The notes under the pieces: generated by a model
Seen by the model: the letters and a program-made list of their open reading frames with translations, nothing else
Database searches by the model: none
What the model was told of the DNA's origin: nothing
Position numbers and translations under genes: made by a program
Shown here: positions 7,286 through 22,165 of the stretch, in pieces
Layout: each line of letters opens with the position of its first letter
Position numbering within the stretch: position 1 is the first letter of the stretch
IMG/VR virus record: IMGVR_UViG_3300030090_003015
Span: 1-22,165 of that record
Origin: a virus
Direction: 5' to 3' (one strand)
DNA length: 22,165 bases

Positions 7286-10200
7286 TTAATCTGTATCTCC
7301 AGTATCTTTAATTGTTACTTTATTTCTTACAACAGCTGTGTCTGTAGCTGTATTATCTGTAGAAGAAACAACACTACTAATAGCAGATAATTTACCTATA
7401 CCTTGTGTTGAAAATGTTTTTGGATCAAAATTAGTAATGTTATTAGATTTATTACTTCTTATAAAATTAAACCATTTACCTTCTTTTCTTTTGAACTCAG
7501 GTATGTATCCTGTTTCTAAATCTGTTTCTATATAGCTAGAATACCAACCATCAACAGGTGTGTTATTGTAAAATTCATCATCAGTTATATTTGCTAAAAC
7601 TCTAGACTGAGTTCCTTCGTAGTTTAACGAGCTAAAATGTTTTACGCTACTTGGTATATCGTTAAAAAGAACACAAACCTTAGACACGTGTTGTATCCCA
7701 TAAAAATTATTTCTAGTTTCACTACTGTGGTGTTCATATATATTACCACCTCTAAAGGTATAATATTTATCATTAAGACTTAAACCAGATTCTTTTAACC
7801 AAGACTGAAACGTTACCCAACCTTTGCTTTTTTCACTATAGCTAGCTGTGATATTTACTAAACTAGTGTTAGTATCATCTAAACCATCTGATGCAAAATC
7901 ATTAATATTATCATCGTCTTGGACTTCAAAAGGCCCTTGCAAAGACCATTTAAACATGTTTGAGTCTTGATAACCACTCCATCCAACAAGCCAATTTACT
8001 TTTACTTCGTAAACCTCTTTGACTGTATCATAAAATATACTTTCAATAGAATAAACCGCTTCTGGTTGATGAGTATGAGTCCAGTTGTTAGGCCAATTTA
8101 TAAAGGCTTGTATAACACCTAAGCCTGTTGCGCCAAGAGCTGGATTATGAAGGGGTGAATGCGCAAAGAAATTAGTTTGATATAAATAAACATTGTTAGG
8201 ACCGTGTGTATTAAGAGCGTTTATTAAAGAGTTCCAATTAGGCGTACTATCTGTAGCTGGCATAATACTATAACCAGTTGTTATTTTATCAAACCAAAGT
8301 GTTATTGGGTTTTCTAAAGTTGGATTAGCACCATACTCACCAGGTCCACCATGCTCTATACCGACTGGATGTGTTGGTGTTCCACTTGCTCTTATACCAG
8401 CCCAACCTCTTGTTGTTGTGCCTGTATTACCTATAATATTAGGCGGTGTTTGCGCGCTACTAGCACCGTTGGTTTCAATCCACTCAGCCCAATTATTAGT
8501 AATACCACCATATCTAAACCAGTTACCAAGAGGATTACCTACCGTAGGTATAGGCCCTGTATTTATAACAGTAAGTCCTGTATCGTCTTCGTCATCAGTT
8601 GTTGACAAAGTTTCTAAGTGTTTTGATCTTATAGTTAAGTTGTACAGCCCTTTATTATCGTCGTAACTACCTACAAGAGTTATGTCTTTTGCTCTAAAAG
8701 CATCTTTAAAATAATCTCTCATACCCATATCAGATATAGGTACTAGGCCTTGTGCTGATAATCTTAAAACAGCACCTCTTGCTTTGTCTGTAAAATAAGC
8801 TCTATACTCATCATAAGCAAAAGAACTAGGATCTGTAGATATTCCATAATCACCGCCATAAGGTTTTGCGTTACCTAAAACTCTATTTGTTGATGTTACG
8901 TTAGCATTGCCATCAGCATTAAATAAAGCGTCTTTATTAGCAAGTATGTTTATAACTCTATCTTCACATAAAGCTGTTAAGTTTGTATCTTTTGACCAAA
9001 GCTTTTGTATACTACCGTAAGTAGGATTTAAATCTTTAGTTATTTTTTCTGCCTGTATAAATTGATTTAAATTATTGACACCACTAATACTGTTATATAT
9101 ACCTGAATATATTAATCCTGACTTTCTACGCTCTTCTTTATATTGCTCTGCTAATACGGTAGAAACTTTAGGTCCTTTATCTATTGTAACAGCATTAAAG
9201 TCATCTCTAATTCTATTTGACTCAACACCGTTAGCAAAAGAAAAACAGTTGTAATATTGTAAAGGATTATAACTAGTGTAGTAATGTGAGCTTTCAAAAC
9301 GATTTTTATAAGTTGAAAACTCTTGGTCTATTGCTAAACAATCACTAGCTTCATGATAAATATCTAAATCAATATCTTCTTTTGGTTCTGTTTCAAATAT
9401 AGCTGGATTATCACTTGTATAAGAATCATCAACAGCAAGTTCTTCTAAAAACTCAATATGCCTTAAACCTTCTGCTGGTTCGTTTTGAAAATGTTTTATT
9501 CTATATCTATCGCTCCAAGCAACTCCTGAAGACTCTCCTTCTTCAAAACCATTAACACCTTCCCAGTTATCAGTAAAAGGATTATAACCTGTACCTGTTC
9601 TACCAACAGCATCAGCACCAGTGGTACCTAACGAAGGTTCAAACTCCATTCTTATCATGACGCTATGGTTTGACTCGTATCTAGCGCCTGCTTCACTGTT
9701 TATCCAGTTATTTGAAGAACGAGCGTAATTTTCAACCATCCACTCGTAGCCAGATGTTTTGACCCTATATATAGTAGTATCACCTTTAAATCTAAATAAC
9801 GTTCCAGGCCCTCTCATTTTTTCTGCTAAAGCTAGTTTTTTATCGTTACCACCTGTAAAGTTATTACCGTGTTTAGTAATACCAAATCTTTTCTTTGCTT
9901 TTCTTCTTATACCACCTTGACCTGCTTTACTCCAGTGCATCTGTATATCTAAAGTACTATAGTTTTGATCTGAAAAATCTTTAAATCCTCTTGTGCCTCC
10001 TGGGGCTGGGTACCACTCGGATCTATGGTCTATTTTACTTACAAAAAATCTTTGTTGCGGTATATCAACAACACCATCAGTACTGTCTCTATAATAGCTT
10101 TCATCATCTTGAACGTTTTTTTGATAACCTAAAGCTGTACTATCTGTTACTATGTATACTTTTTGAAGTTGTTTTACTAAAATGTTTTTTGAAAAAACAG

Positions 10201-13200
10201 CGTCTTTATGTATTTTAACAAAAAATCTACCATTAAATTCTGGTAAGTTTTTTACTTTTTTACTAGCTATTTCTACTGATAAACTATTTTTTAAAGTACC
10301 GCTATTAGTACCATCATCAGTTGTCCATGACATGTCTAGTCCAAAAGGTTTTTTAACTACAACACGTCTATTACCACCATATTCAGATATAGTAGATATA
10401 TCATACCAATCAGAAGTATTAGTAGCATTAGAAATTCTAACAGATCTATCTGTAGCGCTAGCTACATCTTCAAAAGAAGACCCGTCTTTAAATAAACTAG
10501 ATGGTAAATCAAAGTGTGACTGATCTATTTTTGGCTCACCATCTGCTGGAAAAGAAGGTGGTGTTACTGTACCAAGAGTATCAAATTTTGTTTTTACAAA
10601 TAAAGGCGCTTCATTTTCTATTGCTATAATTTTATATCTAGCTTTTTCAACTACAAACTCATCGTTATCATGTTGTTTTTTAAGTATTAAATACGTGTCT
10701 TCATCAACTTTATTTCTTTCAGAAGAAGGAAAGCTAAGCCAAACATTACCATCTTTAGCATCGTAAAATCTATCAAGTGCTAAATTATAATACTCGTTAG
10801 AAGTTTCTTTTACATAAATTTTAAAATGAGTAGCCCAAACAGGCCAGTCATCTGTTTCTTCAAGTCTTACTGTTAAGCCATTATAATCGTCAGCTTTATT
10901 TTTTTTAACCTTAATAACACCTGACTCATGTGTTTGAATAGGTGTTGTTCTACCAAACTCATCTACATAAGCCATACCTACTTGATATGTTCGTAAAGAT
11001 TTTAAAGATCTTTCAGGTTGTTTAGCTTCTGTTTCTAAAGCATTTAATGGACTATACCACTTTATTGTTTGACCTGTTGTCGGATCTACTAAAGCTGTAT
11101 TTTCGTCATACTGTAGATTATCTCTAATATTTTTTCTTTTACGTATAGCTGTTTTAAACTTTTGCTTTATAGTATTTTTGTCGTTTTTACCAATTATATT
11201 AAATTGATGTATATAATTAGCATAAACAATTCTATTAGCAGTTACTTCTTGACCTAATGCTTTTCTAGGAACATTGTCATAAGGTCTTAGTAATTGATTA
11301 GAAGGTACAGCAGCGTGTATTATATCTGATTTTATTTCTAAAGAACCTACAGGATCGTCTATGTTAAATGCTGGTTTTCTAGCTATAGTTCTTTTTATTT
11401 CAAAAGGACTACCATCATACAACCAAGTTGATGCTGAGCTTGTGACAGCGGTACCACCAGCAGTAAGAGATATATAGCTAGCTTCGTTTTCACTAACTAA
11501 AAAAGAATCAATTAAAATAGTTCCAGAAAGCCCTGTTTGTCCTGCTGTAAAGTTAATTTGATCTCCAACCTTAATATTAACATCTTCAAAATCATCTGTT
11601 ATGTTGTAATAATAAATACCATTTTCAATAATTTCACTTCCAGCAAAAGATGTTGTTCCAACCATAGCTAAGTCAGTAACTAAAGTATTAGGCGTTTCTC
11701 TTTTGATCACTTTCCCAAACCAACCTTCATCACCTTTATAATCAACAGTTCTTAATCTATTACCTACTGTTTTAGAACTAGGTGATTTAATTGTTTCTAC
11801 AGTATAAATATTTGGAGAGTTTGATTCTTTATATAAAATATCTATTTCAACAACATCTAAAGGTATTGTTATAGGTTTAAAACCATAAAGTAATAAATAT
11901 CTTAAATTATTTGTCATTCCTAAATTATGACCTTTTCTTGGGTGATAATCAAATCTATCCGCAATAAACGCAACTTCTGAAAAAGGTGAAAAAGCAGAAT
12001 ACTCACCATCTTCATATCTCCATCTATAAGCAAACCTTGGAAATTTAAATTCAAACAAAGGATCTTTTTGCTGCAGTCTAACTCTAAAATTAACAAGAGG
12101 TTTTATTATTTTAGTAGATATTGCTTGTATTTCAAAAGTAAATGTGTTTCCTGCTGTTTTAGAATCTACAATAACAGTAACTAAAGAACTTCCATCAAAA
12201 CCAGCTTCATCATCTTCTGGATAAAATTCAACTACATCTCCTTCCTCCCAGTCTAAAGATTGTGCAAAAGTTAAAGACGGTGTTGTTTGTCCATTTGTTA
12301 ATCTTGCGCCAGCTTCATCAAAAAAGAAACTACTAGAAACAACGTTTGGATCATCAAAAGGAAGTTGAACATCTTGTTCTACTACAATATTACCGTCTTT
12401 TGGCTGTATATCAGCTTTTGTAGTATTAGACATTATCATATCTAAAGAAGACGTAGGCGCGTTCTTTATTACGGTAGCATGTTTATAAGAAAAGAAAGGG
12501 TAGTTTATTGCAGACGCGTAATCGTCTAAGGACGCTAGTCTAGCGTTTGTTGCGTTGTCAGGTATTTGACCATTAACTATTAAAAGTGTAGGATATTTTC
12601 TAGTTCCGTTTTTATGGTAATGAGCTGCGGCGTTTGCAAGATCATCAGCGTTATCAGTGTGAGGACCATATGTTGATCCGTACTTACATCGGTTTATATT
12701 TATTTTTTTAGGCTCTGTTAAGTTGTCAGTCCAAAATAAAAGATCATCTATTATATTTATTCCAGTAATAACTTCACCCGGGTTTTTAGAAGCAAAATGA
12801 TTAAATGCTAACGCTCTTTTTTCATGAGGTAGTTTAAACTGTACGCTTGTGCCAGCGGTTGCTGTTCCTAAAGCAGCATATCCTAAATCATTAGCATCGT
12901 GTTCAGTGTATATTCTCCAACCGTTATAACCACTGTCAGTATCTTCTTCTATTTTTATTACAGAAGTTTTCATACCTTGCATGTAAACTTCCATACCAAC
13001 TTGTATACCTATAGGCCTTATATCACCAGGTAAACCTAAGTTACTTACATGTAGATGATCACCTTTTGCGTGTTGATCATTAGAAAGTTTAGTATTAACT
13101 TTTACGTGTTCTACAAAAACATATTTAGCATTATCACTACTTTCGTTATATTCTATTATGTAATCAGAATATATTTTATGCTTTACGTCTACGTTACCAG

Positions 13201-13579
13201 AGCTATCTTGTTCGGCGTGAACATATGTATTGTTTAAAGCATAATCACCAGTTTCCCAGCTAGCGTCATAGTTTCTATGTGGATCTGTAACAAAATAATA
13301 TATTTTGTTTTTAGCTTTATCAGCTATAGAACCAACACAAACCGCGTCCTTTGAAAACAAGTGACTGTCAGCTGTTAAAAAATCTAAATCTGTACTACCA
13401 ATTTGATCTGTGTTTAATAAAGTATTACCTTTTAGTGATTGTACAGTTCCAGCATTAGAACCCTCTGAAGTGTTAACTTCTATGTTTAAAGCATCTCTAT
13501 ATTCACCATTAGGTACTAATCTTTCGTCAAGATCTTTATTCATTCGACCTTGAGTAAAGTTACGTTTTAACTCCGGCAT
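7286..13579 (-). CDS. Giant tail nozzle/stabilisation-like protein (2097 aa)
   Basis: Largest gene of the window, 6.3 kb, starting 4 bp after the 292-aa gene. The N-terminus (MPELKRNFTQGRMNKDLDER, then PNGEYRDALNIEV and GTVQSLKGN) follows the pattern of P22 gp10/T7 gp12-type nozzle proteins: a Gly-Met-Asn-x-Asp start, a parameter list ending in PNG-x-YR, then G-x-V...GN, followed by IADKAKNKIYYF-like blades. Residues about 505-550 (FPRFAYRWRYEDGEYSAFSP) and about 1487-1630 (SGLIYSGIYNSISG..., GSIQKLWSKD, PYGGDYGISTDPSSFAYDE, YFTDKARGAVLRLS) are blocks I recall from nozzle proteins of Bacteroidota and marine podoviruses. Most of the remainder is beta-rich. Position after two adaptor-like genes supports the tail-tube end assignment. 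It is more than twice as long as T7 gp12 (794 aa), so extra domains must be present. Family assignment is from pattern and context. Confidence 0.7.
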   Translation of the reverse strand: MPELKRNFTQGRMNKDLDERLVPNGEYRDALNIEVNTSEGSNAGTVQSLKGNTLLNTDQIGSTDLDFLTADSHLFSKDAVCVGSIADKAKNKIYYFVTDPHRNYDASWETGDYALNNTYVHAEQDSSGNVDVKHKIYSDYIIEYNESSDNAKYVFVEHVKVNTKLSNDQHAKGDHLHVSNLGLPGDIRPIGIQVGMEVYMQGMKTSVIKIEEDTDSGYNGWRIYTEHDANDLGYAALGTATAGTSVQFKLPHEKRALAFNHFASKNPGEVITGINIIDDLLFWTDNLTEPKKININRCKYGSTYGPHTDNADDLANAAAHYHKNGTRKYPTLLIVNGQIPDNATNARLASLDDYASAINYPFFSYKHATVIKNAPTSSLDMIMSNTTKADIQPKDGNIVVEQDVQLPFDDPNVVSSSFFFDEAGARLTNGQTTPSLTFAQSLDWEEGDVVEFYPEDDEAGFDGSSLVTVIVDSKTAGNTFTFEIQAISTKIIKPLVNFRVRLQQKDPLFEFKFPRFAYRWRYEDGEYSAFSPFSEVAFIADRFDYHPRKGHNLGMTNNLRYLLLYGFKPITIPLDVVEIDILYKESNSPNIYTVETIKSPSSKTVGNRLRTVDYKGDEGWFGKVIKRETPNTLVTDLAMVGTTSFAGSEIIENGIYYYNITDDFEDVNIKVGDQINFTAGQTGLSGTILIDSFLVSENEASYISLTAGGTAVTSSASTWLYDGSPFEIKRTIARKPAFNIDDPVGSLEIKSDIIHAAVPSNQLLRPYDNVPRKALGQEVTANRIVYANYIHQFNIIGKNDKNTIKQKFKTAIRKRKNIRDNLQYDENTALVDPTTGQTIKWYSPLNALETEAKQPERSLKSLRTYQVGMAYVDEFGRTTPIQTHESGVIKVKKNKADDYNGLTVRLEETDDWPVWATHFKIYVKETSNEYYNLALDRFYDAKDGNVWLSFPSSERNKVDEDTYLILKKQHDNDEFVVEKARYKIIAIENEAPLFVKTKFDTLGTVTPPSFPADGEPKIDQSHFDLPSSLFKDGSSFEDVASATDRSVRISNATNTSDWYDISTISEYGGNRRVVVKKPFGLDMSWTTDDGTNSGTLKNSLSVEIASKKVKNLPEFNGRFFVKIHKDAVFSKNILVKQLQKVYIVTDSTALGYQKNVQDDESYYRDSTDGVVDIPQQRFFVSKIDHRSEWYPAPGGTRGFKDFSDQNYSTLDIQMHWSKAGQGGIRRKAKKRFGITKHGNNFTGGNDKKLALAEKMRGPGTLFRFKGDTTIYRVKTSGYEWMVENYARSSNNWINSEAGARYESNHSVMIRMEFEPSLGTTGADAVGRTGTGYNPFTDNWEGVNGFEEGESSGVAWSDRYRIKHFQNEPAEGLRHIEFLEELAVDDSYTSDNPAIFETEPKEDIDLDIYHEASDCLAIDQEFSTYKNRFESSHYYTSYNPLQYYNCFSFANGVESNRIRDDFNAVTIDKGPKVSTVLAEQYKEERRKSGLIYSGIYNSISGVNNLNQFIQAEKITKDLNPTYGSIQKLWSKDTNLTALCEDRVINILANKDALFNADGNANVTSTNRVLGNAKPYGGDYGISTDPSSFAYDEYRAYFTDKARGAVLRLSAQGLVPISDMGMRDYFKDAFRAKDITLVGSYDDNKGLYNLTIRSKHLETLSTTDDEDDTGLTVINTGPIPTVGNPLGNWFRYGGITNNWAEWIETNGASSAQTPPNIIGNTGTTTRGWAGIRASGTPTHPVGIEHGGPGEYGANPTLENPITLWFDKITTGYSIMPATDSTPNWNSLINALNTHGPNNVYLYQTNFFAHSPLHNPALGATGLGVIQAFINWPNNWTHTHQPEAVYSIESIFYDTVKEVYEVKVNWLVGWSGYQDSNMFKWSLQGPFEVQDDDNINDFASDGLDDTNTSLVNITASYSEKSKGWVTFQSWLKESGLSLNDKYYTFRGGNIYEHHSSETRNNFYGIQHVSKVCVLFNDIPSSVKHFSSLNYEGTQSRVLANITDDEFYNNTPVDGWYSSYIETDLETGYIPEFKRKEGKWFNFIRSNKSNNITNFDPKTFSTQGIGKLSAISSVVSSTDNTATDTAVVRNKVTIKDTGDTD

Positions 13580-13583
13580 TTAA

Positions 13584-14462
13584 TTAGTGTTTTATATGTT
13601 TAGACTTACCTCTTAAAATTTGAGTGATTTCTTCTAATTTAATATTAGACAGTCTTAGTTTTGCTTTTCTTATTTCAGCAAATCTTTCTTTTTTAAATCT
13701 TTGAACTAAATATTCTTGTGTATTAGCTCTAGTAGATAATATAGCATATGCTATATATTTATACATGGCTTCTTCAGCAAACTTATGTACTTTCATTTCT
13801 GCATCTGTACCTAGGCTATCACTTATATATTTTATTATTATTGTTTTTCCAGCTAAATTAGAACTAAAGTGTATTAAACCTGTGTTTGGGTCTATATAAA
13901 ACGAACCATTTATATTAGCGTGTTGAGGGTCTAAACCATACCGCTTACCCTCTAGCGCTTCATATATTTCATCATCATAATCATCGTCACTATCTGGCGT
14001 TGCCTCTATAGCCTCAAAGTTTTCCCAAGTAGAAGAAGAATTATCTGTATCTAAAACCCCAGCTGTAAAAGTATAATCTCCATTAGCGTCTTGAGTTACG
14101 TCTGTTGGGTTTGAAGTTTTTAAAGCTGGATATATAATGTGTTCTATACCAGAACCATCGCTCCAAGTAAATTTGACGTAATTAACATAGTCTTGTGGTA
14201 GTATCATTGTTAAAGAACTTGGTAAAACTATTTCTTGAGATTTTACAGATTTAAAAGTATCAAATGATAGTTCTTGTAAAGCTCTTTTAGCATGAAAAGA
14301 GACATCTGTTCTTCTTATCTTTGATATTATTTTATCTTCACCTACATAGGCGATAATAAATTGATTTATAATAGTTTCTAAAGATGTAAATTGATAATCA
14401 CCAAAAGGAGTTGGTGAGGCCGTACTATAATATTGTTGTCCTGTTTGTGTTATTAATCCCAT
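13584..14462 (-). CDS. Head-tail adaptor / tail tubular A-like ring protein (292 aa)
   Basis: ATG follows the upstream TAA with no gap (TAA ATG), and the leader is GGCTAAAAAACAATACTAA with no Shine-Dalgarno. Helical N-terminal part: SLETIINQFI (27-36), then VSFHAKRALQELSFDTF (53-70), a pattern common in phage neck proteins. This is followed by a beta insertion 75-215 containing an acidic low-complexity stretch (DSDDDYDDE, around 157-165). The C-terminal helices 220-285 (AEEAMYKYIAYAILSTRAN, then YLVQRFKKERFAEIRKAKLR) resemble the C-terminal helices of T7 gp11/P22 gp4-like adaptors. It sits between another adaptor-like gene and the nozzle-like gene, the usual place for tail tubular protein A. 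Assignment rests on helix pattern and order; no identity-level match can be claimed. Confidence 0.65.
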   Translation of the reverse strand: MGLITQTGQQYYSTASPTPFGDYQFTSLETIINQFIIAYVGEDKIISKIRRTDVSFHAKRALQELSFDTFKSVKSQEIVLPSSLTMILPQDYVNYVKFTWSDGSGIEHIIYPALKTSNPTDVTQDANGDYTFTAGVLDTDNSSSTWENFEAIEATPDSDDDYDDEIYEALEGKRYGLDPQHANINGSFYIDPNTGLIHFSSNLAGKTIIIKYISDSLGTDAEMKVHKFAEEAMYKYIAYAILSTRANTQEYLVQRFKKERFAEIRKAKLRLSNIKLEEITQILRGKSKHIKH

Positions 14463-15200
14463 TTAGTATTGTTTTTTAGCCATTAATTCGTTATCTTCGT
14501 TTGCCGCTACTTGAGTTAAACCTGGTTTGTTTAATGTTACTCCTGCTAGTTCTAATATTTTATATACTAACTCTGTTTCTTCTGAAGCGTGTAATTGAAA
14601 ATCTGTTGCTTGCGTAGCGTCGAATAACGCGTATGAACCTACAACATTGTAACCCCAAATAACTTGAGTTGGTTTAGATATATAATTGCAAAATATATTT
14701 GGATTATCACCAGCTATTGAATATGCTACTGTAGGTGAAGCTGGATATAAAAGTATTTTTGTATCTGTTTTTCTAACATATACAGGGTTGTTGTCAGTAG
14801 GTGTTGCTAAAGCTGTTTTTAACATATTATGCAAATCGTTTTTATCAACTCTTTCAACCTCACAATCATATGTACCAGCGTTGTAAAAAACAGTACCTAA
14901 TTTGTGTACAACTGGTGTTATTGGTAAAGTAGCCTCGTTACCAACTAAATTTGAAAATGCAACTTTCCAATTTTCAAAAGGCGCTATTTTTTCGTGTAAA
15001 ATATCAAGCCTGTCACTGTACTCACCAACGTTACCGTGTTCATCATACATTTTACCTAATTCATAGCAATATTGTTCAAATATTAATAATTGAGCTTGAT
15101 TAGCAAACAAATTAAATTCTTGAGGTGTTATATAACCTCTCTGCTCTTTGTTAGCCATAGCTTGTACTCTTTGATATACTGTATCTACACTTACTGCCAT
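14463..15200 (-). CDS. Neck/ring (adaptor-like) structural protein (245 aa)
   Basis: Begins MAVSVDTVYQRVQAMANKEQ, then GYITPQEFNLFANQAQLLIFEQY, an N-terminal helical signature that I recall from many uncultured marine phage structural proteins. The middle (85-190) is beta-rich with a conserved-looking patch KLGTVFY...VERVDKNDLHNML, and the C-terminus is helical (SEETELVYKILELAGVTL, 206-223). The gene starts just downstream of the second stem-loop of the module, with the A-rich leader CTAAAAAAAATAATAA directly before ATG. Its stop abuts the next ATG. Position between capsid and nozzle genes and the helix-beta-helix plan suggest a portal-proximal ring protein; a tail-completion role is also possible. 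Confidence 0.65.
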   Translation of the reverse strand: MAVSVDTVYQRVQAMANKEQRGYITPQEFNLFANQAQLLIFEQYCYELGKMYDEHGNVGEYSDRLDILHEKIAPFENWKVAFSNLVGNEATLPITPVVHKLGTVFYNAGTYDCEVERVDKNDLHNMLKTALATPTDNNPVYVRKTDTKILLYPASPTVAYSIAGDNPNIFCNYISKPTQVIWGYNVVGSYALFDATQATDFQLHASEETELVYKILELAGVTLNKPGLTQVAANEDNELMAKKQY

Positions 15201-15220
15201 TTATTATTTTTTTTAGTATT

Positions 15221-15244
15221 GCAACCACCCGTTAAGATGGTTGC
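15221..15244 (-). other. Intergenic stem-loop, not a classic terminator
   Basis: The minus-strand RNA forms a 9-bp stem (GCAACCAUC/GGUGGUUGC, one U-G wobble) with the loop UUAACG. On the plus strand the same position is a C-A mismatch, so the fold favours minus-strand RNA. It is followed by AAUACUAAAAAAAAUAAUAA and the ATG of the 245-aa gene: an A-tract, not a U-tract. It may be an mRNA-stabilising 5' end, a processing site or a weak pause element. Confidence 0.6.
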
Positions 15245-15255
15245 TTTACTTTGTT

Positions 15256-16077
15256 TTACTTCATTCGTTTTTCTATATTCTTGTACACCTCCATACCTTC
15301 ATCAGTTTTAAACCAAGCGGCTAAAGCTGAATACGGGTGCTCATCAAAAGGTACAGTCATTATTTTTCTACCAGTTGAAGCCCAATTAAAAGTTCTTTGA
15401 TCTGAAGTTAAAGATAATATACCAGCTTCTGTAGCTTTTATACCAAAGTTTCTAAGTTGTATATTATCGTCTGTAACTAATTCTAAGAACAGTTGAGGAT
15501 TTCTTTTAGCAAATATAAGTAAATCACGTTTTAATTCCTTATATGACATGCTAGATACCCTAGAGCCATTCTCTACCCTCATAACAGCTTCCATCATATC
15601 AACTTCTAAATCATTAGCCGCTTGTAAAGCAGCAACTTCAAATTCTAACCAGTCTAATTGTTTTTCTGCTTGCTGAACTGGTTTCCACTCATAATAAAGT
15701 TTATCCCTGTGTGGGTGATATAAACTTAAAAATTTTTGTAAAATTGTTTTTTCTCTAGGAACGTGTAGTACCCCGTTTCTAAATACAATATGAGATAATC
15801 TTTGGTCACCTTTCATTTCATCAACAAAAGGAGTTCTTTGATTTTCACAATATTTTAATTCTCTTTCAAAACCTTTTTCTTCGTCAAAATAATAGATATT
15901 AGTAGATCTTATCATGTAAGATAATGGTTTTTTATTACCTATTAAATAATAAACTCTATCTTTTACTTCCCATTCAGGTTTTTTAGGTTCAACTTTTTTA
16001 GGTTTCGGTGTTTCAACAACTGGTGTTTCAACAACAGGTACCTCTACCTTTTCTTTTGTTTCTTGTTTTTTTGCCAT
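15256..16077 (-). CDS. Unrecognised head/neck-region protein (273 aa)
   Basis: Starts with ATG at 16075-16077 downstream of the capsid terminator, with an AT-only leader (TTTATTATATATTAT). Residues 1-35 are a Lys/Glu/Val/Pro-rich, probably unstructured tail with a duplicated VVETP unit. The rest looks like one globular domain: beta start (WEVKDRVYYLIGNKKPLSYM), an Arg/His-rich middle, helices about 135-175 (QQAEKQLDWLEFEVAALQAA), and a C-terminus ending HPYSALAAWFKTDEGMEVYK. Two stem-loops flank the gene, so it may form its own transcript segment. The position just after the capsid gene would suit a head-completion, decoration or capsid-stabilising protein, but nothing in the sequence proves a role. 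Confidence 0.8.
   Translation of the reverse strand: MAKKQETKEKVEVPVVETPVVETPKPKKVEPKKPEWEVKDRVYYLIGNKKPLSYMIRSTNIYYFDEEKGFERELKYCENQRTPFVDEMKGDQRLSHIVFRNGVLHVPREKTILQKFLSLYHPHRDKLYYEWKPVQQAEKQLDWLEFEVAALQAANDLEVDMMEAVMRVENGSRVSSMSYKELKRDLLIFAKRNPQLFLELVTDDNIQLRNFGIKATEAGILSLTSDQRTFNWASTGRKIMTVPFDEHPYSALAAWFKTDEGMEVYKNIEKRMK
16007..16036. repeat. 15-bp tandem duplication
   Basis: GGTGTTTCAACAACT and GGTGTTTCAACAACA lie head to tail (14 of 15 identical). In the minus-strand gene they encode two VVETP units in the disordered N-terminal tail, so the length change is in frame. Confidence 0.85.
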
Positions 16078-16091
16078 AATATAATATATAA

Positions 16092-16132
16092 TAAAATTAA
16101 TAAAATAAAGCCGAGGCCGAAGCCTCGACTTT
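16092..16132 (-). terminator. Intrinsic terminator after the major capsid gene
   Basis: Stem-loop at 16107-16132 in the 66-bp gap after the capsid stop. The minus-strand RNA has an 11-bp stem (AAAGUCGAGGC / GCCUCGGCUUU, one U-G wobble) closed by the very stable C(UUCG)G tetraloop, then UUUAUUUUAUUAAUUUUAU as the U-rich tract. On the plus strand the wobble becomes a C-A mismatch and the loop is CGAA, so the element is built for leftward transcription. It stands out as the only GC-rich island in otherwise AT-rich intergenic sequence. Downstream genes lie in the same direction, so read-through or a new promoter is needed. Confidence 0.88.
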
Positions 16133-16143
16133 TATATAAATGC

Positions 16144-17640
16144 TTACTTCAATAAGAAGAAGTTATTAGCACCTTGTACAATTAAACATCTTTCAGATAA
16201 GTAATGTACCTCCATTGCATCTAGTTCAGATGTAGTAGCACCAACAGAACCAGTAACCCAAGTTTTCATTCTTCGGTCATCAGTTTGTGAAGCTCTATAT
16301 CTAACGTGTAAGAATGGACGTTTTAAATTCTTACCTAAAGTTTGATCATACACAGAAGAAACTCCTGCAGGTATCATACAACCTCTTATTGCATTAACAG
16401 TGTCTTTAGCATTAATAGCACCTCTTGTAGAAGCGTCGTTTAAGTATTTCCAGTCAGACTTGTAGAAGTCATAAGAACCTCTTCTGAAACCAGAGAAACC
16501 TAAATTAAGTGCCATATCTTCTTCGTTGTCAAACACACCGTAAGAAGTACCACCTGTACCATGAGAGTTCATTGAAGCTAACATGTCATCTATAGCTAAA
16601 CTAGTAGATCTGTTTAAGAACATCATGTTTTCTTCAATAGCACCTTGAGAATCAAGCTCAGCTAAAATAGCGTCAAACTCAGCTAAATCAGTACCAGCAT
16701 CAACACCTTCAATACCTGTAGCTATATTACCTCTAGTTTCAATAGCTGAAAATAAACCTTCAGTACCAAAAGTAGTGTGAGATGCTCCTAAAACAGAACC
16801 ATCAGCTGCAGACTGAGCACTATCACCAACAACAGATTCAATCATTGCCATTTCTAAATAATCAGCAAAACGAGCTCTAGTGTCTCCTTCAGCTTTTAAA
16901 TACCACATGTAGCCATTTTGTCCGTCTTCACCTGATATTTCAACCCAACCAACTTGAGAAGCATCAGATCCAGAGATGTCATACTTGTCTTTTAATATAA
17001 TTGGCTTGTTAGTAAATGATTTGAAACCTGGAGTATTAGTACCTACTCTTCCGTTAGTACCTTTTGAATACTCAGAACCAATAACTAGTACCGTTAAAGA
17101 TCCATCATCATCAGAACCTGTAGCAGTTAATCCAGTTAAGTTACCTATTTGACCATTTGCGTTTGTAGCATCGTAAGGAACAACACTAACTACGTTAAGC
17201 GCTACGGCTTGTACTAACAATCTGTGAGTAGCAGTAGCTGTAGCTACTAATAAGATGTCATTTATTCTAACACCATTGTCTCTAGCTGAAGCGTCTAAAG
17301 CTACACCATCAATAGTTTTGTCAAGAGTAATTTGACCACCAGCAGTAGTATCAGCACACTGTGTAGTGTTTTCAACGTGACCAGTATAAGATAAATGTAA
17401 TCTTCCTTGCTCAGACCATACTACTTGATCAGCAGTCATAGCCTCTTCTGCACCAACTTGTGAAAGAAAACCAGAGATAGTTCTGTTACCAAACACCTCA
17501 GCTTCTGCTTCCATTAAGTCAGGCAGGTATTGCTGCGCCCATCCGTCCGAAGACCCAAGCGTAGCAAAATCAATATAATTCGAAGACAGTGTTTGCTGTA
17601 TTGGAGCTGGCACTGTATTCGATGCACCTGTAATTGCCAT
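16144..17640 (-). CDS. Major capsid protein (498 aa)
   Basis: Forms the icosahedral shell. It begins MAITGASNTVPAPIQQTLSS, followed by a helical segment with YLPDLMEAEAEVFGNRTI (39-56), typical of the N-arm and spine helix region of HK97-fold capsid proteins. A beta-rich stretch about 85-235 (RINDILLVATATATHRLLVQ) could be the E-loop plus an inserted domain. The C-terminal half contains a long helix (DTRARFADYLEMAMIESVVG), an Asp/Glu-rich loop, and a C-terminal sheet ending LSERCLIVQGANNFFLLK. Location after portal and scaffold-like genes, size and the strong terminator right behind it all support the call. The leader CTAAAAATTTAAAATTACAAAATT contains no Shine-Dalgarno. No frameshifted minor capsid extension is seen after the stop. 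Confidence 0.82.
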   Translation of the reverse strand: MAITGASNTVPAPIQQTLSSNYIDFATLGSSDGWAQQYLPDLMEAEAEVFGNRTISGFLSQVGAEEAMTADQVVWSEQGRLHLSYTGHVENTTQCADTTAGGQITLDKTIDGVALDASARDNGVRINDILLVATATATHRLLVQAVALNVVSVVPYDATNANGQIGNLTGLTATGSDDDGSLTVLVIGSEYSKGTNGRVGTNTPGFKSFTNKPIILKDKYDISGSDASQVGWVEISGEDGQNGYMWYLKAEGDTRARFADYLEMAMIESVVGDSAQSAADGSVLGASHTTFGTEGLFSAIETRGNIATGIEGVDAGTDLAEFDAILAELDSQGAIEENMMFLNRSTSLAIDDMLASMNSHGTGGTSYGVFDNEEDMALNLGFSGFRRGSYDFYKSDWKYLNDASTRGAINAKDTVNAIRGCMIPAGVSSVYDQTLGKNLKRPFLHVRYRASQTDDRRMKTWVTGSVGATTSELDAMEVHYLSERCLIVQGANNFFLLK

Positions 17641-17664
17641 AATTTTGTAATTTTAAATTTTTAG

Positions 17665-18801
17665 TTATTTTCGTTTTTTAATTTTAAATGTCGCTGTTTT
17701 ATGATTGTTATTATCTCCAATAACCCTTGCTTTAAACCCTGTTTTAGGTGCTGTAAAAGATTGTCTAGGTTCCATGTTAACATTTTTGGATCTAGATATA
17801 CTTTCTCTTAAAGCATCTGCCTTACCTTGCTCGTAAAAATGATTTGCAATAGCATCAGGATTCATAGCTGTGAACAGTCCTTTGTGATAACCACTAGCAT
17901 TTTCCATTTGACCACTTTCATTAAGAAACTTTCTTATGAAATTATTAATGTCACTCTGGTTTGTTTTTACTTTTTCAGTATCACTTACATTATACCTAAA
18001 CCTTTTGTCTCCAATATTGTATTCAAATCCTTTAAATTCATTATTAAAAACTTGATCAGTTTTTTGTAAAAATGTAGACTGAGCTTGTTCTTGAGTTTTT
18101 AATCTTTCTTGCGACTCGTTGAAGTATTTAATAGCATCTTGCTGTTCGTTTGTAAGCTTAGACCCCATTTTAATATCTTCATAGTATTTAGACTTTAGCC
18201 CGTCTAAGTAGGCTTTAGCGCTGGCAACTTGCTCTTTTAACGCTAATTTTTTTCTTTTCACATCTTTTTCGTCATCTATTTTTTCATCCCAGTCAAAACT
18301 TTCTTGTACTAAAAAGTTTATTTCATCATCATCAAGATGTGGTTTTGTATCTTTGTAATAAGACCTAAGCAAATCATCATCACCATAATCATTAAAATCT
18401 CTATTTAAATTCATATAGTCATTTAGATCACCACCTGTGTCTTTCATAAAGTCAACAACCTTTTGTATGTTTTCTGGTAAATCTGGTTGTTTAGGTAGCT
18501 CTGGTTTTGGTGGTTGAGGTGGTTCGTTTGTTATTTCTTCTAATACTGGAGCTTCTTGTGTTTTTGTTTCCGGTTGTACTTCTTCTTGTTTTTGTACGGG
18601 CTCGGCATTTTTAAGCTCTGTAACCACTCCGTCGTTGTTAGTGTTATTTTCTTTAGTTTCATTTTCTTTTGGTTTACTCATATCAACTTTAATGATATCT
18701 GGTGTTTTTTCAAATTTTTTAGGTTTTTTCTTTATTTTTATTTTTTCAACTTTATCGTCTACTTTAGGCTTTTCAGCCACATTTTCTTTGTTTTCTTCCA
18801 T
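17665..18801 (-). CDS. Scaffold-like capsid assembly protein (378 aa)
   Basis: Highly charged. N-terminus 1-90 rich in Lys, Glu and Asn; Pro-rich linker 93-110 (EPPQPPKPELPKQPDLPE); acidic region 125-185 (DYGDDDLLRSYYKD, HLDDDEINFL); coiled-coil-like helices 180-260 (KRKKLALKEQVASAKAYL, ending in an EQAQSTFLQKTDQ-type stretch); and a strongly basic C-terminus (KARVIGDNNN, then TFKIKKRK). Scaffolding proteins typically lie between portal and capsid genes, are helical and acidic, and have a basic C-terminal capsid-binding end; this one matches on all points. No protease catalytic motif is visible, so it is not a prohead protease. The 27-bp leader is only A and T. An alternative is a portal-capsid assembly chaperone. 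Confidence 0.7.
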   Translation of the reverse strand: MEENKENVAEKPKVDDKVEKIKIKKKPKKFEKTPDIIKVDMSKPKENETKENNTNNDGVVTELKNAEPVQKQEEVQPETKTQEAPVLEEITNEPPQPPKPELPKQPDLPENIQKVVDFMKDTGGDLNDYMNLNRDFNDYGDDDLLRSYYKDTKPHLDDDEINFLVQESFDWDEKIDDEKDVKRKKLALKEQVASAKAYLDGLKSKYYEDIKMGSKLTNEQQDAIKYFNESQERLKTQEQAQSTFLQKTDQVFNNEFKGFEYNIGDKRFRYNVSDTEKVKTNQSDINNFIRKFLNESGQMENASGYHKGLFTAMNPDAIANHFYEQGKADALRESISRSKNVNMEPRQSFTAPKTGFKARVIGDNNNHKTATFKIKKRK

Positions 18802-18828
18802 AATATAATATAATAATAATTAATAATT

Positions 18829-21252
18829 TTACATGCCCATTATTCCAGCTAACGGATCTTGTGCAGCACCACCCATTTCAATATCTTCTTGCTGAAAATC
18901 TTTTGGTGGTGAATCGTTTTTTCTTTGATCAATTAACTGAGATTGTTGTGTAGCTTGTATTTTTGTTCTTTCGTCTTTACGATCTTCTTTGCCATCTTCT
19001 TTTGCTTTCATAGCATCAGCTTGTAATTTAGCTAATCTAATCTGTATCTGGAACTCATGGTCCATTAACTGTTTTTTAAGCTCTGTTTCTTGCATCATTC
19101 TTTCTGCTTCAAATTTAGCTTTTATACTTTCTAACTCTTGCATAGACTTAGACTCAGACTGTTTCTTTTGCATTTCCATTTGAGCAGAAGCTTGTTGAGT
19201 TTGTATATTAGCCTGTGATTGAGCCATTATATTCTCTTGTTGTATTTTTTGATCTCTTTCTAGCTTTTTCTTTCTACGTACTTTTAATAGTTGATTTGCT
19301 AGCTTTACATTTTTTATTTCTCTAAGATCAATAGCATCTTCTATATCTATCGTTTGTTGAGATAAAGCAATTTGTATATTATTTTCTAGTAATTGTTTTT
19401 CTTCTTCATCTGGCATTAATTCTATAAATATACCAAAGTCATACAAATGTAACTCAGACATTTCTTTTAATGTAGCCACGTTGTGAGCACCTATTTGCTG
19501 AACAAAAGCATTTTTAGTAGGTGAATATTCTAGTATATCAGATATTCTAAGTGATAAAGCTTCACAAACTTCTTGTGTTAAAAATAATCCTGATTGTAAT
19601 ATATGTCTAGTTGCAGTGTTACTATTTGCAGCTGCTAGTTTTTGCACACCTACTAAAGAGTATTTTTCTGGAGTTGCAGCGTCTCTAGCTTCATTTAAAC
19701 CAGTCACATCTCTAATCATTTGTAAATAATAATTATAGGTCTGTATTAAACTTTGCATTTTACCACCGCCATTATTAGTGTTTATTTCTTGTATTGGCAT
19801 TTTAGCAGGGTTCATGTCTCCATCCGCAGTCATTGATCTACCTATAACAGAACCTGTTTGGAAAAACATATTTAACGCTTCTTGTGGGTTGTAGTTAGTA
19901 CCGTTACCTAAGTCTATTTCAGCCAAACCATCTGCGTCTAAATAAACACCATCAGGAACCATACGCGACATTACCTGCTGTAACTTTAAATGTGTAAGCT
20001 GTATCATATCAGCAAAACCAGTAACCCTACTAACTAAACTTTCTATTTTTCCATTATACATCCTTGGAGCTGTAATAGCATAATTCATTTTTACTTTAGT
20101 AAAATCGCTTTTAGGCCTCATCATGTTTTCAGCCATTTCCCATTTAAGAAGTTTATTACTCCCTAATATCATAGCACCTTCAAACAAAACCTCTACACAT
20201 CTTTTTAAAGCGCTGTAATCTCCATCTTTATTTTCAGGTGGATTAAACGTGTCATCTTTTTCTATAGCTTTATCTGCACCTGTTCTAGTTTGTTTTACTT
20301 TATAAACCTCGTTCATATGAGTTTTATAATTAAAATATAATACTGGTACTTTGTTGACGTCTTTGTCTCCAAACTCACCGCCATATCTATACATGTCTTT
20401 ATTACCGGCTCCGTACTGTACTATTTCTTCTAGGTTTTCGTGAGTTAACTCTGGAAACTGTTTTACTAATTCGTTTATTGGTATTTCTTTTAACTCACCA
20501 ACATAATATATATCTTCAAAATAAGGTGATTCTGTATAAGAGTAAACAAGATGTGCTGGATCAACATAATCTATTTTAACACCTTCACTGGTATTAAACG
20601 TTGTTCTAACAGCGCCTATACCTAACACTGTTAAATCGTAATAAAACTGTTTTTTTATTAATTCGTACCTGTTGCCATCTAACAATGTATTTATAGCTTG
20701 TTCTTCTGCTAATTCTACAGCTTGCTTGTATGTAAGCTGCATATGAAGATTTAACTCTTGCTCTGAAGCAGGTATTATTGACTTATCGTTTTTATTAAGA
20801 GTTATACCTAAAGTTTCTTCAACTAAAGCATTTAAATCTTTTGTTTGAAAATCTCCTAGTAAAGACTCCATATATTCTGTTCTTTTACTTACACCGTGCG
20901 GATCTTGTGAGTAAGCTTTTACATCATACATTCTTTCGGCTATACCGTTTACAACTATATCTACAAACTTAGGTATAATAGGTACTGGTTTCCAGTCTAG
21001 GTTTAAGTAGCTTAAGTCACCATTTATAGATAATTCATCTTTATATTTTTGTATTGATTGTTCTCCTCTAGCGTAAAGTCTAAGGTTATGAAAATTATTA
21101 GAAGTATCTAAATACCTATTGTTATATGTACCATTAGCAAACCACTCGCTAGATATAGCTTTACCAACTTGCAACCCATACTCTGCAGACATTTTTTCTA
21201 TGTCACTTACAACCTGACTTGGAAAACTACCTTTGTAACCTTGTTTTAACAT
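18829..21252 (-). CDS. Portal protein with long C-terminal coiled coil (807 aa)
   Basis: Dodecameric DNA entry channel at the unique capsid vertex. Evidence: N-terminal helices with NFHNLRLYARGEQSIQKYKD, then PKFVDIVVNGIAERMYDVKA; a clip/stem region around 185-260 with EEQAINTLLDGNRYELIKKQ and VDPAHLVYSYTESPYFEDIYY; and RDVTGLNEARDAATPEKYSL near 510-530, a very common portal crown motif. From 663 to the end the protein is Gln/Glu/Lys/Met-rich helix with heptad character and an acidic Gly-Met tail (EMGGAAQDPLAGIMGM). It starts 5 bp after the terminase stop and precedes the scaffold-like gene. Portals of ordinary T7-like phages are about 530 aa; the 807 aa here is closer to P22-size or crAss-like portals, which carry long C-terminal helical barrels. 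Confidence 0.85.
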   Translation of the reverse strand: MLKQGYKGSFPSQVVSDIEKMSAEYGLQVGKAISSEWFANGTYNNRYLDTSNNFHNLRLYARGEQSIQKYKDELSINGDLSYLNLDWKPVPIIPKFVDIVVNGIAERMYDVKAYSQDPHGVSKRTEYMESLLGDFQTKDLNALVEETLGITLNKNDKSIIPASEQELNLHMQLTYKQAVELAEEQAINTLLDGNRYELIKKQFYYDLTVLGIGAVRTTFNTSEGVKIDYVDPAHLVYSYTESPYFEDIYYVGELKEIPINELVKQFPELTHENLEEIVQYGAGNKDMYRYGGEFGDKDVNKVPVLYFNYKTHMNEVYKVKQTRTGADKAIEKDDTFNPPENKDGDYSALKRCVEVLFEGAMILGSNKLLKWEMAENMMRPKSDFTKVKMNYAITAPRMYNGKIESLVSRVTGFADMIQLTHLKLQQVMSRMVPDGVYLDADGLAEIDLGNGTNYNPQEALNMFFQTGSVIGRSMTADGDMNPAKMPIQEINTNNGGGKMQSLIQTYNYYLQMIRDVTGLNEARDAATPEKYSLVGVQKLAAANSNTATRHILQSGLFLTQEVCEALSLRISDILEYSPTKNAFVQQIGAHNVATLKEMSELHLYDFGIFIELMPDEEEKQLLENNIQIALSQQTIDIEDAIDLREIKNVKLANQLLKVRRKKKLERDQKIQQENIMAQSQANIQTQQASAQMEMQKKQSESKSMQELESIKAKFEAERMMQETELKKQLMDHEFQIQIRLAKLQADAMKAKEDGKEDRKDERTKIQATQQSQLIDQRKNDSPPKDFQQEDIEMGGAAQDPLAGIMGM

Positions 21253-21257
21253 ATTTG

Positions 21258-22165
21258 CTATTTAATTATTTTAGACATATTCCCTTTGTTTTCATACTTG
21301 AATATGTTTATGTTTACTTTTTGTTTTTCAATTTTAGCATTTGGCGCGTATAAATGTCTATTACAAGCCATTATAGCTAAACCCGAGCTAATTGCAGCAT
21401 CAAACTTTGTTCTTTTATTTATATCAAACCTAGCCCAATCGTTTAAAGTTCTATTAAAATACATTTTACCGTAGTTACCGTTTGTTTGTAAACCTACTTT
21501 GTCTTGTATATACATCTCAATAGCAGCCGCATGAGCTTGTTTTATATCCTCACTAGAGTTTGGTATGCCACCTATTTCTTTTTCTGCTGCAGAAAGCTTG
21601 TTCCAAACTTTGTCTGGTCTATTCATACTATAACCTCTGTAACCTCTACGTCTTAAGTAATATAATAATCTAGGTTTATTATTTTCAGCAAGCAAAGGCA
21701 TACCATAAAAAACTAATGCCATTAATACATCTTCAAAAAATATCTCTGCTGTTTGTGGTCTAGCTATATATTCTAAGAAAAAAGAACTAGAAGGCGCCTC
21801 TTCCATTGAAAACTTAGTTAAACCGTGTAAAGCACCATTAGAACCTCTACCATCTACAGTTCCTGATATATCATAGCTATCACAACCAAAAGCGCCTACA
21901 TGCTCGTTACCAGGATATTTAATACCGTTTTTTGATACTATTTTGTTTTGTAAGTGAACTGGTGGCACCCAGCTTATATTAAACCTACCTTTTGGATCTG
22001 GGTAAAATATTACTTGCGTGTCTTTAACACCGTTAACCCATTGAAAATTACCCTTTGATATAACAGCTTCATTACCTATACCTTCATTGTAATCTATTTG
22101 TTCGTATATTTTTACTAAGTTAAATATACTATTTTTTGTTTCATCTCTAAACGCGTGCTCTTCAG
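21258..22165 (-). CDS. terL: Terminase large subunit, C-terminal nuclease domain (5' end missing)
   Basis: Packaging motor subunit that cuts and translocates phage DNA. The frame is open from the right edge to the TAG at 21258-21260, about 301 residues; the ATPase domain lies outside the window. A GTG at 21966-21968 is not the start because the frame continues upstream with sensible sequence (YNEGIGNEAVISKGNFQWVN). The RNase H-like nuclease is visible: FGCDSYDISG (first catalytic Asp, about residue 95 of the visible part), FFLEYIARPQTAEIFFEDVL, ENNKPRLLYYLRRRGYRGYS followed by MNRPDK, and near the C-terminus FDAAISSGLAIMA, whose Asp is the likely last metal ligand. Stop and portal ATG are 5 bp apart. 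The GYRG...NRPDK block is of the type I recall from crAss-like and related podovirus terminases. Confidence 0.87.
   Translation of the reverse strand, partial: EEHAFRDETKNSIFNLVKIYEQIDYNEGIGNEAVISKGNFQWVNGVKDTQVIFYPDPKGRFNISWVPPVHLQNKIVSKNGIKYPGNEHVGAFGCDSYDISGTVDGRGSNGALHGLTKFSMEEAPSSSFFLEYIARPQTAEIFFEDVLMALVFYGMPLLAENNKPRLLYYLRRRGYRGYSMNRPDKVWNKLSAAEKEIGGIPNSSEDIKQAHAAAIEMYIQDKVGLQTNGNYGKMYFNRTLNDWARFDINKRTKFDAAISSGLAIMACNRHLYAPNAKIEKQKVNINIFKYENKGNMSKIIK

Follow-up and report, generated by a model that had tools for sequence, protein, structure and literature searches.

The stretch of DNA analyzed here, referred to throughout as the window, comprises the 22,165 nucleotides of the IMG/VR virus record IMGVR_UViG_3300030090_003015. 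Its genes run leftward in the order terminase (fragment), portal, scaffold-like, capsid, a 273-aa gene, two further virion proteins, a 2097-aa protein, and then smaller ones. None of the long genes assigned lies on the plus strand. Searches of the window against Rfam and for tRNAs returned no match. The features on which the analysis centers are the following.

18829–21252, minus strand: portal protein gene (phrog_6547)
18802–18825, minus strand: A/T-only element directly before the ATG of the scaffold-like gene; candidate promoter for the capsid cassette
17665–18801, minus strand: scaffold-like gene, 378 aa (matches no family; name taken from its position)
16144–17640, minus strand: major capsid protein gene, 498 aa (phrog_13704, gene order, fold matches)
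16107–16132, minus strand: predicted terminator hairpin, 11 pairs, UUCG loop (fold and conservation in relatives)
16092–16106, minus strand: T-rich tail of the predicted terminator, interrupted by A (sequence)
16078–16101, minus strand: A/T-only element directly before the ATG of the 273-aa gene; proposed restart promoter
15256–16077, minus strand: first gene behind the predicted terminator, 273 aa (phrog_34748, phrog_16922; weak similarity to crAss001 gp33)
15221–15244, minus strand: second conserved hairpin, without a T-run

The product of 16144–17640 was identified as the capsid protein based on its match to phrog_13704 (“virion structural protein”), gene order, and the fold matches of a low-confidence structural model (pLDDT 51.7). 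In Foldseek searches with this poor model, the best-ranked solved structure was a crAss001 virion chain (E 1.9e-4), and capsid entries of crAss-like phages (2.1e-4 and 8e-4) ranked high in the viral library. The capsid profile showed no sequence-level match to crAss001 gp32 (hhalign probability of 0.5%), and sequence profiles of the capsid, 273-aa, and 245-aa proteins retrieved no solved structure. The crassvirus muzzle protein domain PF25729 scored 25.3 bits, below its cut-off of 27.

The nearest named phages were MW202828, Maribacter phage Panino, and the Flavobacterium elemo phages, with capsid proteins 39–45% identical to that of the window. Relatives were grouped as those found with the window's capsid protein (set A, hereafter the clade), those found with Panino's (set B), those found with elemoF's (set C), and named records (set D). 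Set A formed one branch with 100/100 support in a capsid tree of 64 rows selected from all loci, 27 of them from set A.

The hairpin behind the capsid gene

An 11-bp stem with a UUCG loop and a T-rich tail, acting on the leftward transcript, had been described behind the capsid stop in the original prediction, and both the structure (16107–16132, with the tail at 16092–16106) and its direction were borne out. On the minus strand, positions 16132–16107 read AAAGTCGAGGC-TTCG-GCCTCGGCTTT, followed by ATTTTATTAATTTTA, giving 11 pairs, one of which is T-G, and a T-run broken by an A. A hairpin rich in G+C thus precedes a T-run on one and the same strand, as in intrinsic (Rho-independent) terminators. 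Alone, the minus-strand hairpin folded to −18.3 kcal/mol (z −4.2 vs. 200 dinucleotide shuffles, 0 of which folded as well), whereas its plus-strand copy was weaker at −12.4 kcal/mol; it was also the strongest of eight terminator-like sites in 8000–22165, where 5.6 were expected. Of the 78 set A hairpins, 63 carried the CTTCGG motif in the late-strand sense and 0 in the antisense form. The same prediction placed the hairpin before tail genes of the same strand, which stood only in part: same-strand genes do follow, but the next one (15256–16077) has no assigned tail function.

The test applied to relatives called for one hairpin at or below −8 kcal/mol with five Ts in the eight bases behind it. 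All 207 testable relatives carried such a hairpin and T-run behind the capsid gene (A 78/78, B 78/78, C 48/48, D 3/3), two of 80 loci in each of sets A and B (<60 nt downstream) and two of 50 in set C (partial capsid genes) having been dropped before the count. Seven of the 48 set C hairpins (L217–L222 and L230) lie 89–105 nt behind the capsid stop and could represent another feature. In a matched test of distinct 120-nt stretches, 154/154 capsid-gene ends passed vs. 22/154 shuffled copies and 56/330 other gene ends drawn at random from 592, and a chance hairpin was ruled out by the shuffles, the conservation in relatives, and these matched controls. Scaffold-gene ends passed in 43 of 136 cases, most of them in set A (34/62), and those set A cases that were inspected consisted of long, loose stems within the capsid coding region. 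The start of that coding region passed a loose hairpin test in 45 of 74 distinct set A loci, and in loci such as L006, L009, and L017 we observed an imperfect inverted repeat, GTAGTTTAAATAGTGT...TTCAAACTAC, in its first ∼80 nt.

Comparison of the relatives showed that the predicted terminator is conserved as a structure, not as a sequence. Several unrelated stem sequences are represented within set A alone. The UUCG class comprised 25 distinct arm pairs, in which pairs 1–7 and 10 were formed in 25/25; pair 1 was invariant, and most other pairs varied on both sides (covariation). Changes in the stem were compensated, and it was lost in none of the relatives that could be tested, so that uncompensated loss, one of the outcomes named as refuting the original prediction, did not occur. 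This retention of structure while sequence changes is the pattern sought for an intrinsic terminator, and the order of element, scaffold gene, capsid gene, and terminator was conserved as well. The interpretation that fits best is that the hairpin is an intrinsic terminator at the end of a promoter–scaffold–capsid cassette, where we infer that transcription ends. A literature search that lay mostly outside subscription journals returned no paper on this terminator or on a phage sigma factor of this lineage, and we found none on crAss promoter and terminator maps that described this terminator.

A/T-only elements at two positions in the clade

Three studies (PMC7366714, PMC6847099, PMC9723704) describe TAHHTTTG as the −7 element that the primary sigma factor of Bacteroidetes uses. 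After omission of loci without a complete scaffold frame (3/80 in A, 13/80 in B, 3/48 in C), this motif preceded the scaffold gene in 116 of 118 non-clade relatives (B 65/67, C 45/45, named phages 6/6), whereas only one of 77 clade loci had the host sigma-A motif 15–50 nt before that gene. At all 77 clade loci the site before the scaffold gene was instead an A/T-only stretch abutting the ATG, with C allowed at −1. Across the five long clade contigs, TAnnTTTG before genes showed no excess (9/329 vs. 14/329 in the reversed control).

An A/T-only element also preceded the next gene behind the hairpin at 77 set A loci, where positions −11, −9, −8, and −7 were invariant and −10, −6, and −5 varied in at most two; because these loci were chosen by TAT[TC]ATG[GA], positions −4 to −1 (including an A at −3 in 77/77) were conserved by construction, whereas −11 to −5 were not. 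The element reaches to about −24. Its 15-mer occurs exactly twice in the window, at the next gene and at the scaffold gene (0.02 expected), and across the five long contigs and the window the two element sites were the two best ATG-abutting hits of a matrix that was itself built from such sites. The element was T-rich in 69/69 clade cases at the scaffold gene and in 12/12 at the next gene. Capsid leaders of the clade are A-rich, with T exceeding A in only 1 of 57.

A host-type promoter was looked for behind the terminator in the window and was absent. Among unique gaps at this position, TAnnTTTG was found in 10 of 15 in set C (reversed control 2), in 11 of 50 in set B, barely above its reversed control of 7, and in 0 of 66 in set A, with a further 15 gaps in C and four in A standing outside the count for want of an ATG in reach. 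Among the named phages, elemoF and MW202828 carried the motif behind the terminator and Panino did not. We consider that the clade's A/T element between terminator and next gene is probably a promoter, given that it is T-rich, unlike the A-rich translation leaders, and that at the scaffold gene it occupies the place taken by TAHHTTTG in other relatives.

A sigma70-family protein among the replication genes

Set A contigs encode, among their replication genes, a 253-aa sigma70-family protein, located for example at 49015–49776 of contig G004 (L100:9015–9776) on the minus strand, beside Erf and exonuclease genes. It matched PF04545 (Sigma70_r4) at 25.3 bits, over the cut-off of 24.1, and phrog_351 at 3e-18; PF04542 scored 22.5 bits in the protein scan, just under 24, and 26.2 bits with the frame neighbors in the genome search. 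Sigma70-family regions 2 and 4 were thus recognized in relatives of the window. The gene was present in four of 34 clade records, exactly the four that reach its neighbor, the Erf-type annealing gene, and among non-clade records a search by protein found it in 0 of 30 and one with Pfam region 2 in 0 of 12. The proposed link between sigma factor and A/T element is a co-occurrence drawn from these four contigs, and the window record ends short of the sigma region.

Late promoters of the T4 gene 55 type are A/T-rich and are served by a phage sigma70-family factor. The clade shares with this system a sigma70-family factor encoded by the phage and a candidate late promoter that is A/T-rich, and differs in that only two such candidate sites per genome were found, both abutting an ATG. 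A giant RNA polymerase of the crAss type was set aside as the reader of the element: a D.D[GQ]D motif search of frames of at least 250 aa in five contigs gave only three unconvincing hits, and a PHROGs search with the 3448-aa protein gave no match. On contig G005 (C1:49319–49864) we observed that the Erf-type annealing gene, unlike its relatives, contains one internal TGA and one internal TAA.

Transcription across the capsid cassette

The reading that we favor, and judge reasonably probable, is that of a terminator, a short capsid transcript, and a restart at the A/T element with the phage sigma factor. The element would be read as a promoter by an RNA polymerase carrying the phage-encoded sigma70-family factor, with transcripts probably beginning at or very near the ATG. 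At the hairpin, a large share of the transcripts from the element before the scaffold gene would stop, ending a short scaffold–capsid transcript and yielding a short, abundant capsid mRNA. In the clade, transcription of the next genes would restart at the second copy of the element directly behind the terminator, leaving the capsid unit insulated. Against a restart promoter, the fixed distance between element and ATG also suits a translation signal; against near-leaderless transcripts, two studies describe leaderless mRNAs as rare in Bacteroidetes (PMC7366714, PMC9723704).

The original prediction had likened the hairpin to T-phi of phage T7, and as far as position is concerned the likeness extends to the window and to nearly all of the 207 relatives tested: a hairpin directly behind the major capsid gene, with further structural genes on the same strand after it. 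Phage T7, which is transcribed by its own single-subunit polymerase, shares with the window a hairpin terminator at this place and a scaffold–capsid pair with promoters in front. It differs in having a promoter before both scaffold and capsid genes, where here the pair shares one upstream element, and in having no promoter after Tphi until phi13, 3 kb on, where here a second A/T element follows the terminator directly.

Closer to the T7 arrangement are crAss001, phi14:2 (with a weak T-run), phi38:1, and phi46:3, in which the hairpin is followed, as in T7, by no host-type promoter before the next gene; in crAss001 and phi14:2, TAHHTTTG is lacking for about 4 kb behind it. These two members of the Crassvirales (a Bacteroides and a Cellulophaga phage, respectively) share with the clade the succession of promoter, scaffold-like gene, capsid gene, hairpin, and next gene, and differ in carrying a host-type promoter in front, where the clade has the A/T element, and none over those 4 kb. 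The late genes of crAss001 are thought to be transcribed by the host polymerase, according to PMC8375218, which fits its host-type promoters. In crAss001 we also observed a terminator-like hairpin ahead of the capsid cassette, along with a TATCTTTG promoter (L235 26866–27100), so that its capsid unit looks bounded on both sides. In the T7-like relatives the next genes would have to be supplied by read-through, unless they have a promoter of some other type. Elemovirus elemoF and MW202828 share with the clade a terminator behind the capsid gene and a promoter-like site immediately after it, and differ in that this site is the host-type TAnnTTTG with an A-rich leader.

The strongest alternative is that T-phi logic applies unmodified, i.e., that a leaky terminator makes read-through the sole mRNA source for the genes behind it and that the A/T element is just a leader. 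T7 itself, crAss001, and phi14:2 are in line with it, as are most set B relatives, which have no clear promoter in this gap. We nevertheless regard it as unlikely, since the clade carries like elements behind the terminator and at the scaffold gene, the site of a promoter in other relatives, since these elements are T-rich, unlike translation leaders, and since a host-type promoter follows the terminator in the elemo phages and MW202828. The original idea of downstream genes supplied by read-through is not supported for this window, where a conserved A/T element, a probable promoter, lies between terminator and next gene. Of the conserved regulatory logic that it proposed, the group-wide capsid terminator and the T7 arrangement in crAss001 and phi14:2 held up, whereas dosage by read-through in the window is doubtful.

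Next in standing is the possibility that the terminator is a terminator but the A/T element is a translation-start signal, not a promoter. Its fixed distance to the ATG would suit this role, as would the A at −3 (77/77, by selection), a positive determinant in Flavobacterium according to PMC6847099. This too appears improbable to us, given that the capsid gene of the clade itself lacks the element, that the element is T-rich and runs to about −24, and that at the scaffold gene it stands in the promoter place of other relatives. That the hairpin is an mRNA end-stabilizer or processing site and not a terminator is very improbable: a second conserved hairpin one gene on (63/65 clade gaps, T-run in 1/63) lends the idea some substance, but the capsid-gene hairpin has a T-run in 78/78 clade cases and a compact stem in 73/78.

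Returning to the favored reading of termination followed by restart, we tentatively raise a broader proposal, which could well be wrong: that one lineage of Bacteroidota-type phages swapped the host sigma-A promoters of the capsid cassette for a private sigma70-family factor and an ATG-abutting, A/T-only late promoter, used twice per genome (at the scaffold gene and behind the terminator), with late mRNAs that are nearly leaderless and with capsid genes dosed separately from neck and tail genes. The clade would then offer a naturally occurring switch of promoters, a candidate sigma factor included, and a test case for late-transcription takeover in hosts with unusual promoters. The T7-type arrangement of the capsid terminator recurs across Bacteroidota phages, some of them cultured, so that whether it governs capsid-to-tail dosage is directly testable in crAss001 and Cellulophaga systems.

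Two further sequence features were observed. The second hairpin, at 15221–15244 on the minus strand of the window, lies about 20 nt before the 245-aa gene and shows many compensatory changes among the clade gaps; it may mark a processing site or act as a translational operator. Since the operon also contains hairpins that lack a T-run, a hairpin by itself is no proof of termination. The early regions of three contigs (G001, G002, and G004; pieces L088, L093, and L100) contain, on the early-gene strand and 1–37 nt before an ATG, a repeated ACAAACTAAATACGA-N8-GGATAATATA motif, with a variant in G003, which is a probable early promoter.
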